Shown here: positions 36,671 through 45,855 of the stretch, piece after piece | How the letters are laid out: each line of letters starts with the position of its first letter | How positions within the stretch are numbered: the stretch's first letter is position 1 | Assembly (NCBI GenBank): GCA_017451025.1 | Contig: JAFSSM010000054.1 | Location: 1-46,116 of the forward strand | Source: Synergistaceae bacterium | GTDB lineage: Bacteria; Synergistota; Synergistia; Synergistales; Aminobacteriaceae | DNA: 46,116 bases | Direction: 5' to 3' | Made by a program: the position numbers and the translations under genes | The notes under the pieces: model-generated | Seen by the model: the letters and a program-made list of their open reading frames with translations, nothing else | The model's database searches: none | What the model was told of the DNA's origin: nothing

Positions 36671-37243
36671 CTACTTCTTCATGAGGGGGGCACCGACGCG
36701 CCAGGCCTGTGCAAATTCTTTGCCGACGGTGTAGTAGGTGTTCCTGAACTGGTCGAACATCACAGCGTTCAACTTTCCTGCGTCAACCTTGCCCTTCTCG
36801 TCAAGGACTTTCTCATCTGCTAGGACATTAACGATAGTCCCTACGACTCTCATTTCGCCGAAGCACTCCCTGACTTCCTCGAGTTTGCACTCCATAGTAA
36901 CCTTGAACTCCTGAATGACCGGAGCATCGACACGCGAACTTTTCACTGCGGTGAGTCCTGTGCGCTCGAACTTGTCGGACATGACATTTCCGCTGGCTGT
37001 GCCGAGAAAATCTGCTTCCTTGATGTGCGCTTCGTCGGCCAGAGCGACGGTGAAGGCTTTCTTGGCCTGAATGTTCTTGAGGGTCTTGCGGTCGGGAGCG
37101 AGGTTGAGGGCGATTTTGTCCATTCCGCAAATTCCGCCCCAAGCTACATTCATTACGTCGACTTTGCCGTCTTCGCCGTAAGTTGCGACCATGAGTACGG
37201 GCATCGGGAACACTGCAGGCACTGAGCCTAAATCTTTAAGCAT
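36671..37243 (-). CDS. Flavin reductase/flavoredoxin-family protein
   Basis: 190 residues with the FMN-binding split-barrel pattern: PMPVLMVATYGEDGKVDVMNVAWGG, LNLAPDRKTLKNI, AFTVALADEAHIKEADFLGT, and a C-terminal TYYTVGKEFAQAW. Members reduce flavins or act as FMN electron carriers in anaerobes. A good ribosome site (AAGGAGAG) precedes ATG 37243. It is downstream of the glycosyltransferase on the same strand, and a terminator follows. Confidence 0.88.
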   Translation of the reverse strand: MLKDLGSVPAVFPMPVLMVATYGEDGKVDVMNVAWGGICGMDKIALNLAPDRKTLKNIQAKKAFTVALADEAHIKEADFLGTASGNVMSDKFERTGLTAVKSSRVDAPVIQEFKVTMECKLEEVRECFGEMRVVGTIVNVLADEKVLDEKGKVDAGKLNAVMFDQFRNTYYTVGKEFAQAWRVGAPLMKK

Positions 37244-37300: not shown

Positions 37301-37723
37301 TTATATCCCTTCAATTTCCTTCAAGTAGTCCGATATACGTTCAAACTTGGCTGTCATATCGACGTTAGCCCAGTTAGAGCTGTTGATGAAGTGTATCCAG
37401 CATGAGTCTAATACGGAGACCAGGCCCTCCTGCATGTTTCTGGCAATGCCGTCATGGAAAATGTTCACGTACTTTTCTTGCGCAAATGAATGTTTATGCT
37501 TTTCGATTGCGCGGAACAATATTTCGTACATTCGAGCTCCGGTATCTCCCCATTCCGTAGTGAAGAAATCGAGATTGCGGAAATCTGCTCCCCTAATGTA
37601 AAAGAAACCTGGCCACACATACCATTTGCCGCCGAATCTATCCTGAATTACGCCGTAAAAGAACTGTCCGTGAGCTTGTTGGACAATATCACATGGTTTG
37701 AATGGCATTACATCCTGGTCCAA
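37301..37723 (-). pseudogene. Phase-OFF glycosyltransferase, C-terminal part
   Basis: The open part has 140 residues from a TTG at 37723, but the same frame extends upstream without stops to the G10 tract at 37839-37848 (reads IYLRLPHNPFKSSQSHAAAL, then NWTCRNVLANNNV and TLILDQDVMPF). The DxD-type motif DQD and the SHAAALNW pattern fit a GT-A family 2-like glycosyltransferase. The N-terminal third is in another frame on the other side of the G tract. With G11 or G8 the halves join into a 277-residue protein. By itself this part lacks the nucleotide-binding start and is presumably not translated. Confidence 0.72.
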
Positions 37724-37827
37724 GATAAGTGTGGAAGTTACATTATTATTGGCTAATACATTCCGGCAAGTCCAATTCAGCGCGGCGGCGTGTGATTGCG
37801 ACGACTTGAAGGGGTTATGAGGCAGTC

Positions 37828-38133
37828 TTAAATAAATACCCCCCCCCCGATAATTTTACGTATTGACGCAGATTCTTCCGGATTGCTGGAATTATCGGCG
37901 ACAAGATAAACATACGGACGCTGAAAATATTTCTGAAGCCTGCTCATTTGCTGGGATATTACCTCTGAATTGTTGAACGCTACAGTTAAGATACACAGCT
38001 CCGCATTGATGATTTTCTCAACATTAAAGCTGTCCAGTGCGTCCATTTTGTAGAATTTTTCCTCAGCATTACTCAATAAGTGCCGGTGCACCCTTCTTTT
38101 CAATCCGGCAACATAACCGCGAATCATGCTCAT
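37828..38133 (-). CDS. Phase-OFF glycosyltransferase, N-terminal part
   Basis: 101 residues starting at ATG 38133 behind AGAGGAGG. After a basic leader it has the start of a family 2-like glycosyltransferase (AELCILTVAFNNSEVISQQM, YVYLVADNSSNPEESA), then reaches the G10 tract and ends in an out-of-frame VFI and stop. In the present state the product is truncated before the DxD motif. It lies between a PTS terminator and the flavin reductase. It probably acts on a surface glycan or flagellin; the acceptor is unknown. Confidence 0.78.
   Translation of the reverse strand: MSMIRGYVAGLKRRVHRHLLSNAEEKFYKMDALDSFNVEKIINAELCILTVAFNNSEVISQQMSRLQKYFQRPYVYLVADNSSNPEESASIRKIIGGGVFI
37839..37848. repeat. 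C10 homopolymer (G10 in the glycosyltransferase coding strand)
   Basis: Ten consecutive C on the plus strand lie inside the glycosyltransferase frame. Ten G puts the frame out; eleven or eight restores it. Long G/C tracts are classic slippage sites. Confidence 0.95.
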
Positions 38134-38153
38134 GAATACCTCCTCTTAAAATA

Positions 38154-38179
38154 TCCCCGCAGTCCGAAAACCGCGGGGA
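38154..38179 (-). terminator. Terminator after the PTS gene
   Basis: A 7-bp stem (38173-38179 with 38154-38160) is followed on the minus strand by a short T-rich run (TATTTTAA). It lies just after the PTS stop at 38209 and before the ribosome site of the glycosyltransferase. Confidence 0.55.
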
Positions 38180-38208: not shown

Positions 38209-40074
38209 TTATACGTTCTCTCCGAACTTCACGCCCTCGTAATCGTCGCTGTTCGTCAGAAGAAGTACTACCGTATCAGGATGTCCCGCCGCCTTAATCT
38301 TCGCGCGGTTGAACTTCATCAGCTTCTGGCCCTTCTTGACCTTGTCGCCTTCCTTCACATAGTCCTCGAAACCGTCGCCCTTCATCTCGACAGTGTCGAC
38401 CCCGACGTGAATCAGGACTTCCATATCGTTCTCGCCGCTGATCCCGATTGCGTGCTTGCTCTCCGCCACTGAGGAAATCTCGCCGTCGATCGGAGCATAC
38501 ACGTACTCGTCTTCAGGCACGATACCTACGCCCTGGCCAAGTGTTCCTGCCGCAAACGTCGGGTCAGGAATCTCCGTGTAGGGGATTACTTTTCCGGCCG
38601 TGCACTGTGCAATTTCTCCGGCTGACGATGTGATTACCGTACCGAACTCATGTACACCCTCCGGCTCTGCTGCTGCGGGTGCGGGTGCTGCTTCTGCTTC
38701 AGGCTCGTCTTCCTTCCAGAGAATCCACGCAAGCACAAACGCTATACCGCCGGAAATCGCAAGCAGTATCGAGTACTGTACAGGCTGTGCAATCGTCAGG
38801 TAGCCAGGAATACCAGTAACGCCGTATGCCTTTGCACCGATTCCGGTGAACGCTCCGTAGAATGCTCCGACGGTTCCGCCGATCATTCCGGCGATGATGG
38901 GCTTGAAGAAACGAAGGTTGATACCGAAAATTGCAGGCTCAGTTATTCCGAGTGCCGCAGAGATTGACGAAGGAACTGCTACAACCTTTGTGCGGGCATT
39001 GCGGGCCTTGAAACCGATGGCCAAGCACGCACCGAACTGTGCGAAGTTAGCGGCTGAAGCTATGGGCATCCAAGTATTAAGGCCGCCCTCAACGGAGAGC
39101 ATTCCGGCCTCGATGACGTTGTACATGTGGTGAAGTCCCATAACAACCGTCCAAGGATAGATTGCTCCCATTATTGCCGAGCCGAGCGGGTTCTTCACGA
39201 GTATCTGCGCTCCGGCAAGTACCCACGTCTCAAGCTGTGAGAATATCGGGCCGATGACCGTGAACGTGATGAACGTAGTGAGCAGGACTGTCGTGAAAGG
39301 CACAACAAAGAGGTCGATCATTTCCGGCGTGTGCTTGTGCAGCCATTTTTCGATTGTGCACATCAGCCACACAGCAATAATTACCGGGATAACGTGTCCC
39401 TGATAGCCGACTTTCTGGACTGTAACGATGAAGTTGAAGATGTTGAAGTTCCACGACGGGACCTCTGCAAGTCCGCCGACCACCCACGCGTTCACGAGGT
39501 TTGAGTGAATCATGGCCAGACCGATAACTGCTCCCAAGAAGGTGTTTCCGCCGAAAACTCTTGATGCCGAAATTGCTACGATGACAGGCAGGTACGCAAA
39601 CGCAGTGTTGGCGACCATATCGAGGAAGTCGTACCATGAAGTGCTAGCGAACTCGGGATAAACTTTACCCATTGCCTCGACGAAGCCCATCATAAGGCCC
39701 GACGCAACAATTGCCGGCAGAATCGGTACGAACACGTCGCCAATTGCCTTGAGCATTCTCTTCCAGATCGGCTGGCCTGCGGCGGCGGCGGCTTTAACGT
39801 CGTCCTTCGTGGCCTCTGTCATTCCCGTAACGCTCAGGAACTCAGCGTAGACCTTGTTGACCGTTCCGGTTCCGATGATGAGCTGGAGCTGTCCGTTGTT
39901 CTCGAACATTCCCTTTACGCCGTCGGTGTTCTCGAGTGCCTTCTTGTCGACCTTGCCGTTGTCCTTGATGACAAGCCTTAACCTCGTGGCGCAATGGGCC
40001 GCCTGGACGATATTTTCACGTCCGCCTATGTGCGATACTATTTCTTCCGCACACTTCCTGTAATCCAGTGCCAT
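38209..40074 (-). CDS. PTS permease IIBCA, sucrose/trehalose/beta-glucoside type
   Basis: 621 residues with three fused PTS domains. IIB (residues 1-90) has the phospho-cysteine in QAAHCATRLRLV and the GTGTVNKVYAEF ending seen in sucrose-type permeases. IIC (about 105-460) has ten or so membrane segments and GITEPAIFGINLRF. An Ala/Glu/Pro linker leads to IIA (about 490-621) with the active histidine in EVLIHVGVDTVEM. It takes up and phosphorylates a disaccharide or glucoside using PEP-derived phosphate; sucrose is the best guess from the IIB/IIC patterns. It is downstream of a HAD phosphatase in a two-gene operon with a promoter at 41002-41030. Confidence 0.92.
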   Translation of the reverse strand: MALDYRKCAEEIVSHIGGRENIVQAAHCATRLRLVIKDNGKVDKKALENTDGVKGMFENNGQLQLIIGTGTVNKVYAEFLSVTGMTEATKDDVKAAAAAGQPIWKRMLKAIGDVFVPILPAIVASGLMMGFVEAMGKVYPEFASTSWYDFLDMVANTAFAYLPVIVAISASRVFGGNTFLGAVIGLAMIHSNLVNAWVVGGLAEVPSWNFNIFNFIVTVQKVGYQGHVIPVIIAVWLMCTIEKWLHKHTPEMIDLFVVPFTTVLLTTFITFTVIGPIFSQLETWVLAGAQILVKNPLGSAIMGAIYPWTVVMGLHHMYNVIEAGMLSVEGGLNTWMPIASAANFAQFGACLAIGFKARNARTKVVAVPSSISAALGITEPAIFGINLRFFKPIIAGMIGGTVGAFYGAFTGIGAKAYGVTGIPGYLTIAQPVQYSILLAISGGIAFVLAWILWKEDEPEAEAAPAPAAAEPEGVHEFGTVITSSAGEIAQCTAGKVIPYTEIPDPTFAAGTLGQGVGIVPEDEYVYAPIDGEISSVAESKHAIGISGENDMEVLIHVGVDTVEMKGDGFEDYVKEGDKVKKGQKLMKFNRAKIKAAGHPDTVVLLLTNSDDYEGVKFGENV

Positions 40075-43436: not shown

Positions 43437-43517
43437 ATGGACGTAGTACGTAATTTGCGTAAAGGGGGGGGGGGCTACACAAGTAGCTCTGCTCTCCTAG
43501 AAGGAGGGTTATTATGA
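43437..43517 (+). CDS. Flagellin leader peptide containing a G11 tract
   Basis: 26 residues (MDVVRNLRKGGGGYTSSSAL, then LEGGLL), with AGGAGG 9 bases before ATG 43437. Its TGA overlaps the flagellin ATG as ATGA (43514-43517). With 11 G the leader frame runs through the hairpin that hides the flagellin ribosome site and ends on the flagellin start. With 12 G it would stop at TAG 43484-43486, before the hairpin; with 10 G at the TAG 43498-43500 inside it. It is too short for automatic gene calling. The strong ribosome site, position behind a sigma-28 promoter and exact overlap argue that it is translated and couples flagellin expression to the tract length. Confidence 0.65.
   Translation: MDVVRNLRKGGGGYTSSSALLEGGLL
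43464..43474. repeat. G11 homopolymer in the flagellin leader
   Basis: Eleven consecutive G on the plus strand, inside the leader peptide frame (codons 10-13). Tracts this long slip readily during replication. Confidence 0.95.
43492..43508 (+). promoter_or_regulatory. Hairpin sequestering the flagellin ribosome binding site
   Basis: CTCTCCT (43492-43498) can pair with AGGAGGG (43502-43508) across a three-base loop, with one T-G pair, hiding the whole AGGAGG that serves ATG 43514. Ribosomes reading the leader would open it. Confidence 0.6.
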
Positions 43518-45292
43518 GGATTCTCAATAATCTTCCTGCACTTCATGCATTCACATCACTGAATAAAACCAACAAAGCACTTCAGAAGACCATCAATGCT
43601 CTATCAACTGGGTTGCGCATAAATTCTTCCGCCGATGACGCTGCGGGATTTGCGATAAGCGAGAGGATGCGTTCGCAGATTTCGGGGCTTGATGTTGCGG
43701 TCAGGAACACTCAGGACGGAATAAGCCTGCTTCAGACAGCCGAAGGGGCACTTGGCCAGACGAACAGTATGCTACAGCGAATGATGGAGCTAGCGATTCA
43801 GGCGAGCAGTGATTCGCTGACGAGCCAGGACAGGAGTTATCTTCAGCTGGAGATTGACGAACTGAAGGACCAGATTGACAGGATTGCGGGAACGACGCAG
43901 TTCAACAAGAAGCGTATTTTGGACGGGAGTAGTGGGGCGTTGTGGTCGAGCGATGACCTGAACGTTAAGGCGAAGATTCACGGAGGGCTGGTAACTGTTG
44001 ATGAGTTCGGACAGAAGGTGAACCACGAGGGGAATTTCCGGATCGAGGTTAGTGCTGAGCCTGGATTGCCGCAGGTGCAGAAGAGCAATATCATGCACTT
44101 TACCGAAACAATAACTTCTGTTGAGAACATTATTACTGAAGTGGATCCGCCTACATCAACCGCTCGTGTCGTATTTGTGATTGATGTATCTGGGTCTATG
44201 GGCGGCGAACTCCAGAAGGTCAAGGATAATATTGCCTCCTTCAAGAGCAAAATTGAAGCTGGCGGAGTAGATAGTGTCGAAATCGGAATATGTACATATG
44301 GCACTAATGATGCGTATGATCCAAATTTTGTAGCATACACATACCCAGATGGTTCTTTATGGTCGTCCGATACTAGTGCAATTACAACTCTACTAGAACC
44401 GGTAACTGCTCCCTATGGTTGGGATACGTATAATTATTATGCTGTCCAGAAAGCCGCAGAAACATACAATGATTCCTACGGCACTAACCGTTATATGATT
44501 CTTGTAACAGATGTAGATCACACATATGGTGAAGGTTGGACTGCTCCAATCGGTTCTAAGGAAATATATACGGAAGCTACTCTTAGGTCAGCACTTGAAA
44601 GCGATCCCACAACAGATAAAGATAATATAAAACTTTCTGTAATCTCCCCTAATCCTGATAGAACTTCGGAATTCTATAACTTAGTTAGTGATTCTGGAGG
44701 CAGTATGCTTATGGCAGGGACTGACTGGAGCGATGACCTTAATGTTCTGGCTGATGATATAGCAGAGACCACAGAAACCGATAAAATCATAGATAATGTC
44801 GCGGAATCGTCATTCTCCACTATTGGCAGTATGTCTGCTTTCTATAATGTGAACGGTGTATCTTTAGTCTCTAAGCCTCAAACCCTCACCATCACTCAGG
44901 GAAACGGCAACTCTACTTCCGTCACTCTCTACGAGACCGATACTCTCCAAGACGTAGCCGACAAAATTAACTCAGCAATTGCCGACGGACTCGGTCAGGC
45001 CAAGTACACCAACAACCGCGAAAAATTCTGCACAATATCCGACGGCACAGAAGGTACTTCTGAATCCGTCTACGACCGTCAGCCCATATACGACTCCTAC
45101 GGCAACATCATAGGCTACGATGTCTACGCAACCATGCTCGTACGTTCCGCAATACCCGGCAAAGACGGCGAACTCTACACTTCTCCGGCGATGACGACCT
45201 CCTCCGTGCACTCGGCCTCAACACAATTCAAGAGTCCACCGAATCCACATTCACCGCCTCTGTCTACAACGCTCACTCCGGAAAAATCGTAA
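43514..45292 (+). CDS. Flagellin with inserted von Willebrand factor A domain (N-terminal part)
   Basis: 592 codons in this frame. Residues 1 to about 145 are a normal flagellin D0/D1 domain (STGLRINSSADDAAGFAISERM, NTQDGISLLQTAEGAL, FNKKRILDGS). Residues about 218-430 are a VWA domain: VVFVIDVSGSMGGE with MIDAS D224, S226 and S228, a threonine region ICTYGTND and an acidic VTDVDHTYG. Then flagellin-type sequence resumes (LTITQGNGN, LYETDTLQDVADKINSAI). The frame is lost near 45176-45181 and the rest of this frame is out-of-frame tail. The C-terminal flagellin domain is in the next entry. The VWA region is AT-rich (21 G+C of 60 at 44281-44340) compared with the flanks (33 of 60 at 43681-43740; 35 of 60 at 45361-45420), as if recently acquired. 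Confidence 0.88.
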   Translation: MRILNNLPALHAFTSLNKTNKALQKTINALSTGLRINSSADDAAGFAISERMRSQISGLDVAVRNTQDGISLLQTAEGALGQTNSMLQRMMELAIQASSDSLTSQDRSYLQLEIDELKDQIDRIAGTTQFNKKRILDGSSGALWSSDDLNVKAKIHGGLVTVDEFGQKVNHEGNFRIEVSAEPGLPQVQKSNIMHFTETITSVENIITEVDPPTSTARVVFVIDVSGSMGGELQKVKDNIASFKSKIEAGGVDSVEIGICTYGTNDAYDPNFVAYTYPDGSLWSSDTSAITTLLEPVTAPYGWDTYNYYAVQKAAETYNDSYGTNRYMILVTDVDHTYGEGWTAPIGSKEIYTEATLRSALESDPTTDKDNIKLSVISPNPDRTSEFYNLVSDSGGSMLMAGTDWSDDLNVLADDIAETTETDKIIDNVAESSFSTIGSMSAFYNVNGVSLVSKPQTLTITQGNGNSTSVTLYETDTLQDVADKINSAIADGLGQAKYTNNREKFCTISDGTEGTSESVYDRQPIYDSYGNIIGYDVYATMLVRSAIPGKDGELYTSPAMTTSSVHSASTQFKSPPNPHSPPLSTTLTPEKS

Positions 45293-45855
45293 CCTCAAAC
45301 GCAAAAGCTACCGGCCAAGAATTTGTGAGCCTCATTCCTCCCGAAATCGACATCGAGGTTGACGCAATGGCCGGACTCGCCGCAAATTGGGACGAGAACA
45401 CCAGGCAATTCATGATGGCCACCAAAAACGTCTACACCGCAATGCTCCACCTCAAGAACAACGGCACAATCTTCCAGACCGGCGGAAACATGGGCGAGGA
45501 CTTCATGATTGATCTCGGCGACTCTTCCTGCGACGCACTCAACCTCTCCCGCGTGAATGTCGTTACCCGCGAGACAGCCTCCCGCTCAATCGGCATACTT
45601 GACCGTGCGATTCACGCCATAGCCTCACAGCGAGCGAAGATAGGCTCATACGAAAATGCACTCGACCGCACAATGGAGAACCTGACGATTACCAGCACCA
45701 ACCTGACCGACGCAGACTCCAGAATACGCGACCTCGATATGGCCTCAACCATGATGGACTTCGTGCGCCTGCAAATCCTGAACCAGTCGGGTACGTCAAT
45801 GCTTGCGCAGGCTAACCAGATGCCCAATTCTGTGCTAAGTCTTCTGCAGGGGTAA
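45181..45855 (+). CDS. Flagellin C-terminal domain, frameshifted from the preceding part
   Basis: The frame from 45181 to TAA at 45855 reads FSGDDDLLRALGLNTIQEST, hook-region sequence, and then the C-terminal D1/D0 flagellin helices (TASRSIGILDRAIHAIASQRAKIGSYENALDRT, TNLTDADSRIRDLDMASTMM, and the end SMLAQANQMPNSVLSLLQG). These are needed for filament assembly. The first ATG in frame is not preceded by a ribosome site, so this is the end of the upstream flagellin gene. Reading TACAC at 45176-45180 as TAC (removing one AC) joins the two frames as GELYFSGDDD. It may be a mutation, an assembly error, or another switch. Confidence 0.82.
   Translation, partial: FSGDDDLLRALGLNTIQESTESTFTASVYNAHSGKIVTSNAKATGQEFVSLIPPEIDIEVDAMAGLAANWDENTRQFMMATKNVYTAMLHLKNNGTIFQTGGNMGEDFMIDLGDSSCDALNLSRVNVVTRETASRSIGILDRAIHAIASQRAKIGSYENALDRTMENLTITSTNLTDADSRIRDLDMASTMMDFVRLQILNQSGTSMLAQANQMPNSVLSLLQG

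Follow-up and report, generated by a model that had tools for sequence, protein, structure and literature searches.

The split gene and its reading frames

The window, the whole 46,116-nucleotide stretch of DNA that was analysed, carries a glycosyltransferase-like gene on the minus strand (37301-38133) that is divided into two frames around a tract of ten Gs (G10, 37839-37848). The gene is 833 nt long, starting with the ATG at 38133 and ending with the stop codon at 37301-37303. Its 5' part (37849-38133) comprises 95 codons ahead of the tract, with the VAFN and DNS motifs, and is preceded by the AGGAGG at 38139-38144, a strong motif that probably serves the gene as its ribosome binding site. 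As assembled, the 5' frame terminates shortly past the tract, at 37828, giving a product of 101 aa. The 3' part (37301-37837) consists of 178 codons and a stop and carries NPFKSSQSHAAALNW and LDQD; its frame, a 181 aa ORF that includes SHAAALNW, is open through G10 to the stop. A tract of G11 would fuse the two frames into a product of 277 residues, and G8 into one of 276. When the DNA was read on the minus strand, the coordinates, motifs and adjacent frames described in the first-pass annotation were found to be correct, as was its arithmetic that G11 or G8 joins the frames.

The codon log-odds were positive in each half for the named frame only, among the three minus-strand frames. When the 3' segment was resampled 20,000 times with a first-order model, only 38 of the resampled sequences were open for at least 150 codons in any of three frames. 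The possibility was considered that the locus is a decaying pseudogene, in which a simple frameshift or an assembly error chanced on a run of Gs and no switching takes place. The 273 codons of the two halves contain no additional stop or frameshift and both halves keep their codon bias, which argues against decay. A poly-G contingency gene has a homopolymer of at least eight Gs inside the coding frame and on the coding strand, and a change in its length joins or separates two otherwise intact frames. Both features were found at 37301-38133, where the tract is G10 as assembled (the real length may differ, homopolymers being easily miscounted).

When the read-through protein was compared with 72,556 plasmid records by tblastn, a single match was obtained, WP_140537617.1 from a plasmid of Mesorhizobium sp. 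B1-1-8 (24% identity, 82% of the query, E 6e-11). By BLASTP, this protein spans residues 40-266 of the read-through protein and is unbroken at the tract. VAFN, DNS..PE, NP....S.SH..A.NW and LD.D are common to both. Although the two proteins are homologous and have the same motifs, WP_140537617.1 differs in its sequence at most positions, is encoded in one continuous frame and is annotated as a hypothetical protein. Because it aligns uninterrupted across both halves, the two halves are shown, at the level of sequence comparison, to be one gene with a single ancestral frame, as the first-pass annotation had proposed. The position of the tract corresponds to a short stretch occupied by other residues in the Mesorhizobium protein, so a few glycines could be tolerable there.

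The product and its genomic site

The product was termed glycosyltransferase-like because the family and structure databases were silent, the result of a profile comparison depended on the set used and the fold model was unusable. No family was recognised by Pfam or NCBIfam, with the PF00535 cut-off not reached, and there was no match in PHROGs and no credible match in the PDB, either by sequence or by profile. The single-sequence fold model had a pLDDT of 34.8. The order and spacing of the VAFN, DNS, NP..S.SHxxAxNW and LDxD motifs, on the other hand, are the same in WP_140537617.1, and family 2 enzymes of the GT-A type have their motifs in this order.

The two proteins were combined into a profile, which was aligned by hhalign with GT2 proteins of the genus and of the order to which it belongs. 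The match had an E value of 0.0012, with the motifs in register, against a cleaned set and 0.15 against the uncleaned set; the cleaning dropped six sequences that on inspection were misframed or off-domain, including one from another GT2 subgroup, and the alignment method was also changed. None of 200 column-shuffled profiles did as well against the cleaned set. The motif order and this one profile comparison lend moderate support to a GT-A, family 2 assignment. Alternatively, the gene may be phase-variable as proposed but encode another Rossmann-like enzyme rather than a glycosyltransferase. Such an enzyme would fit the lack of matches in Pfam, NCBIfam, PHROGs and PDB sequences and the pLDDT of only 35, but the motif order and spacing common to both proteins and in register with GT2, together with a profile match that no column shuffle equalled (cleaned set only), make it unlikely. 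The earlier description of a family 2-like glycosyltransferase is thus moderately supported, with a weak GT2 profile match that has the motifs in register but no Pfam or NCBIfam match.

The gene is flanked upstream by a PTS EIIABC gene (38209-40074) and downstream by a flavin-reductase-like gene (36671-37243), both on the minus strand. A terminator-like hairpin on the same strand (38154-38179) lies between the PTS gene and the glycosyltransferase-like gene, with 2 terminator-like sites found vs. 1.9 expected in shuffled sequence. No promoter stood out in a search ahead of the gene. In congener G003 (L077), the PTS and flavin-reductase-like genes are 120 bp apart and the site is empty: similarity to the window extends through the PTS gene as far as the stop codon and begins again at the fifth base past the stop of the glycosyltransferase-like gene. 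Unrelated ORFs occupy the site in congeners G022 (L076) and G024 (L090). The G+C content of the gene is 0.438 vs. 0.507 for the window.

The source genome is 2.35 Mb in 62 contigs and 97.6% complete. A search of 185 genomes of the phylum with a two-row profile recovered the gene from its own genome and detected no relatives in the 184 others. No second carrier was found in 60 relatives, in a GTDB pattern scan, in IMG/VR or among phages, and the plasmids gave the one homologue described above. Since the site is empty or different in congeners, the G+C content is lower and the gene is confined to one of 185 genomes, the sequence context indicates that the gene was most likely inserted at a variable site as an accessory element. 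The presence in one genome only (among the 60 relatives and the 185 phylum genomes) and the low G+C content would also suit a decaying pseudogene, as would the neighbouring flagellin gene, which is likewise frameshifted and has no long tract at the break. The Synergist_CTERM model TIGR04564 had 10 matches in the source genome and was above cut-off in 33 of 41 genomes (the source genome, 24 from its genus and 16 from its order) vs. none of 14 control genomes, which indicates that the source genome belongs to Synergistota.

Poly-G tracts in the genome and the genus

Windows of eight Gs numbered 7 in the 46-kb stretch vs. 0.49 expected, and as many were seen in none of 100 shuffles. The 2.35-Mb genome contains 59 tracts of at least nine Gs, whereas Markov models predicted about 1.4-5. 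A chance G run was ruled out by this count. The tracts are 9-23 nucleotides long, with a median of 12. When the tracts were scored as lying between long frames, defined as a start-containing upstream frame of at least 30 aa and an open downstream frame of at least 40 aa, 38 of the 59 qualified on the G strand vs. 5 on the C strand. The frames were in register in 10 of the 38 tracts flanked on the G strand, which is near one third.

The genes containing the tracts were scanned with Pfam, using 30 pieces from 29 tract genes that were picked for length from the 59, a sample that excludes intergenic and some contig-end tracts. Matches were obtained for 26 of the 29, nine of them to glycosyltransferase families (Caps_synth, GT2, group 1, GT6 and GT11). 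The other classes were FkbM methyltransferase, LicD, hexapeptide and acyl transferases, epimerase, ATP-grasp, radical SAM and ketosynthase-like proteins. By these family assignments, most of the scanned tract genes are predicted to act in glycan modification. Tandem radical-SAM genes (L039, 1851-4210) are 73% identical and have a G12 tract at the equivalent place in each. Three tracts of G12-G13 (L032, L069 and L070) lie within a similar short repeat with frames alike and are probably part of a non-coding repeat.

Tracts of at least nine Gs were present in all 36 congeners searched, with 2-49 apiece. In other families of the order, 17 of 24 genomes had such tracts, with a maximum of 24. The strand bias was weaker in G022 than in the source genome, with 19 tracts flanked by long frames on the G strand vs. 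8 on the C strand among the 30 of its 36 tracts that were entered in the count; the frames were in register in 9 of the 19. A Caps_synth tract at the same site is G14 in the source genome and G10 in G022.

For six of the 59 tracts, a contig end is no more than 60 bp away, vs. 0.19 expected. Contigs C11, C20, C25, C37, C46 and C52 end at a poly-G tract or no more than 42 bases from one. Reads of mixed tract length would explain contig breaks at the tracts, and poor sequencing of poly-G would do so too. The source genome encodes a full-length MutS1; the loss of MutS1 as the origin of the tracts was thus ruled out for this genome.

The tract excess, the strand bias, the distribution of phases and the classes of genes strongly support phase variation and are the best evidence for it. 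The slipped-strand layout suggested by the first-pass annotation is upheld by the 59 tracts, their coding-strand bias, the near-random phase and the glycan-gene targets. Moreover, dozens of similar tracts in unrelated genes, biased toward the coding strand, argue against the decaying pseudogene, which is regarded as highly improbable. The glycosyltransferase-like gene is very probably, to judge from its sequence and setting, a poly-G contingency gene that is OFF at the assembled G10. Slippage would occur at the tract at 37839-37848 during replication and change its length. Lengths that bring the frames into register would yield a glycosyltransferase-like protein of the GT-A type, ~277 residues long, in which the few glycines from the tract would lie in a loop joining the nucleotide-binding half to the SHxxAxNW/DxD half. 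At any other length, the assembled G10 among them, translation would end just past the tract, and an OFF gene could regain the ON state by a further change in tract length. The putative glycosyltransferase is presumably catalytically active, and flagellin is a possible acceptor. Since dozens of genes carry such tracts, this one among them, and most are predicted to build or decorate surface glycans, the cells of one clone would come to display differing surface sugars.

A different role for the tract was also considered, in which leaky slippage of RNA polymerase or the ribosome allows some full-length protein to be made whatever the length of the tract, which would then tune expression instead of switching it on and off. 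Long homopolymers are known slippage sites, and this tract, encoding glycines only, should be tolerant of its length. Leaky expression was nevertheless given very little weight relative to a contingency gene switched by replication slippage.

Phase variation by poly-G tracts has been described chiefly in a small number of host-associated genera, Campylobacter, Helicobacter and Neisseria among them. In Helicobacter, glycosyltransferases are phase-variable by homopolymer slippage, and the gene in the window resembles them in its proposed on/off control by slippage of a homopolymer in a glycan gene. The parallel with Campylobacter and Helicobacter drawn in the first-pass annotation is apt for the layout; kinship of sequence forms no part of the likeness. 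Campylobacter has well-established poly-G contingency genes in surface-structure loci. Poly-G on the coding strand is described in the PhasomeIt survey (PMC6321876) and in a comparison of Campylobacter genomes (PMC539331). The genes found here are like them in having a G tract within the ORF, G on the coding strand, both frames open and many surface-structure targets. However, the phylum is different, MutS1 is present here, the gene in the window has no Pfam family and the tracts are longer (median 12 and up to 23, vs. a peak at 9-10 in the PhasomeIt survey). PMC3711429 lists two Synergistetes genomes in a count of frame transitions, and searches of open-access full texts yielded no description of a comparable phasome from Synergistota. 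Poly-G contingency genes are therefore already known, and Synergistota is a new place for them.

Leader ORFs ahead of flagellin genes

The second tract of the window, a G11 on the plus strand (43464-43474), lies within a short leader ORF (43437-43517) that has an AGGAGG ahead of it. At the assembled tract length, the stop codon of the leader overlaps the ATG of a flagellin gene (ATGA). The N-terminal part of this flagellin (43514-45292, plus strand) includes a VWA domain, and its frame breaks near 45170.

Leader ORFs with G tracts were found ahead of accessory flagellin genes in five species (the window copy and L107, L118, L175 in reverse and L113). In four of the five, the leader stop overlaps the flagellin start as ATGA in one tract phase; in the fifth, the leader extends 17 bases into the flagellin gene. 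The survey covered 70 upstream stretches, in which some genes appear twice (e.g., L113 and L178) and 14 had no start found and were left uncounted. Of 45 tract-free flagellin starts (some genes counted twice), 15 had the corresponding frame open for 60 nt. Comparison of 4/5 with 15/45 gave a binomial probability of about 0.045, calculated by hand, and the association of the tracts with leader-flagellin overlap is suggestive only.

Translation of leader and flagellin may possibly be coupled in a manner gated by the tract. In one of the three tract phases, the leader would be read to the flagellin start, where the stop-start overlap would allow translational coupling, and in the other two it would end upstream. 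It is proposed tentatively, as a conjecture with a lesser chance of being right, that a genus of Synergistota has a genome-wide poly-G phasome that switches surface-glycan genes like the one described here and, by way of leader ORFs with tracts, controls how much flagellin is made. If so, each cell would draw its glycan and flagellin identity at random. A genus-wide phasome of this size would mean that a deep and little-studied phylum had evolved the strategy in the presence of MutS1, and it would account for such genomes assembling with seemingly broken glycan genes.

The VWA domain of the flagellin at 43514-45855 is in the middle of the protein, and the break near 45170 occurs at a place with no long homopolymer. 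In the G011 relative (L106), the frame remains open where the window copy breaks. Flagellin-like matches numbered 6 to 22 per genome in the source genome and 24 congeners, with open frames of about 90 to >1200 aa, which suggests that the genus has many flagellin paralogues with varied middle domains.
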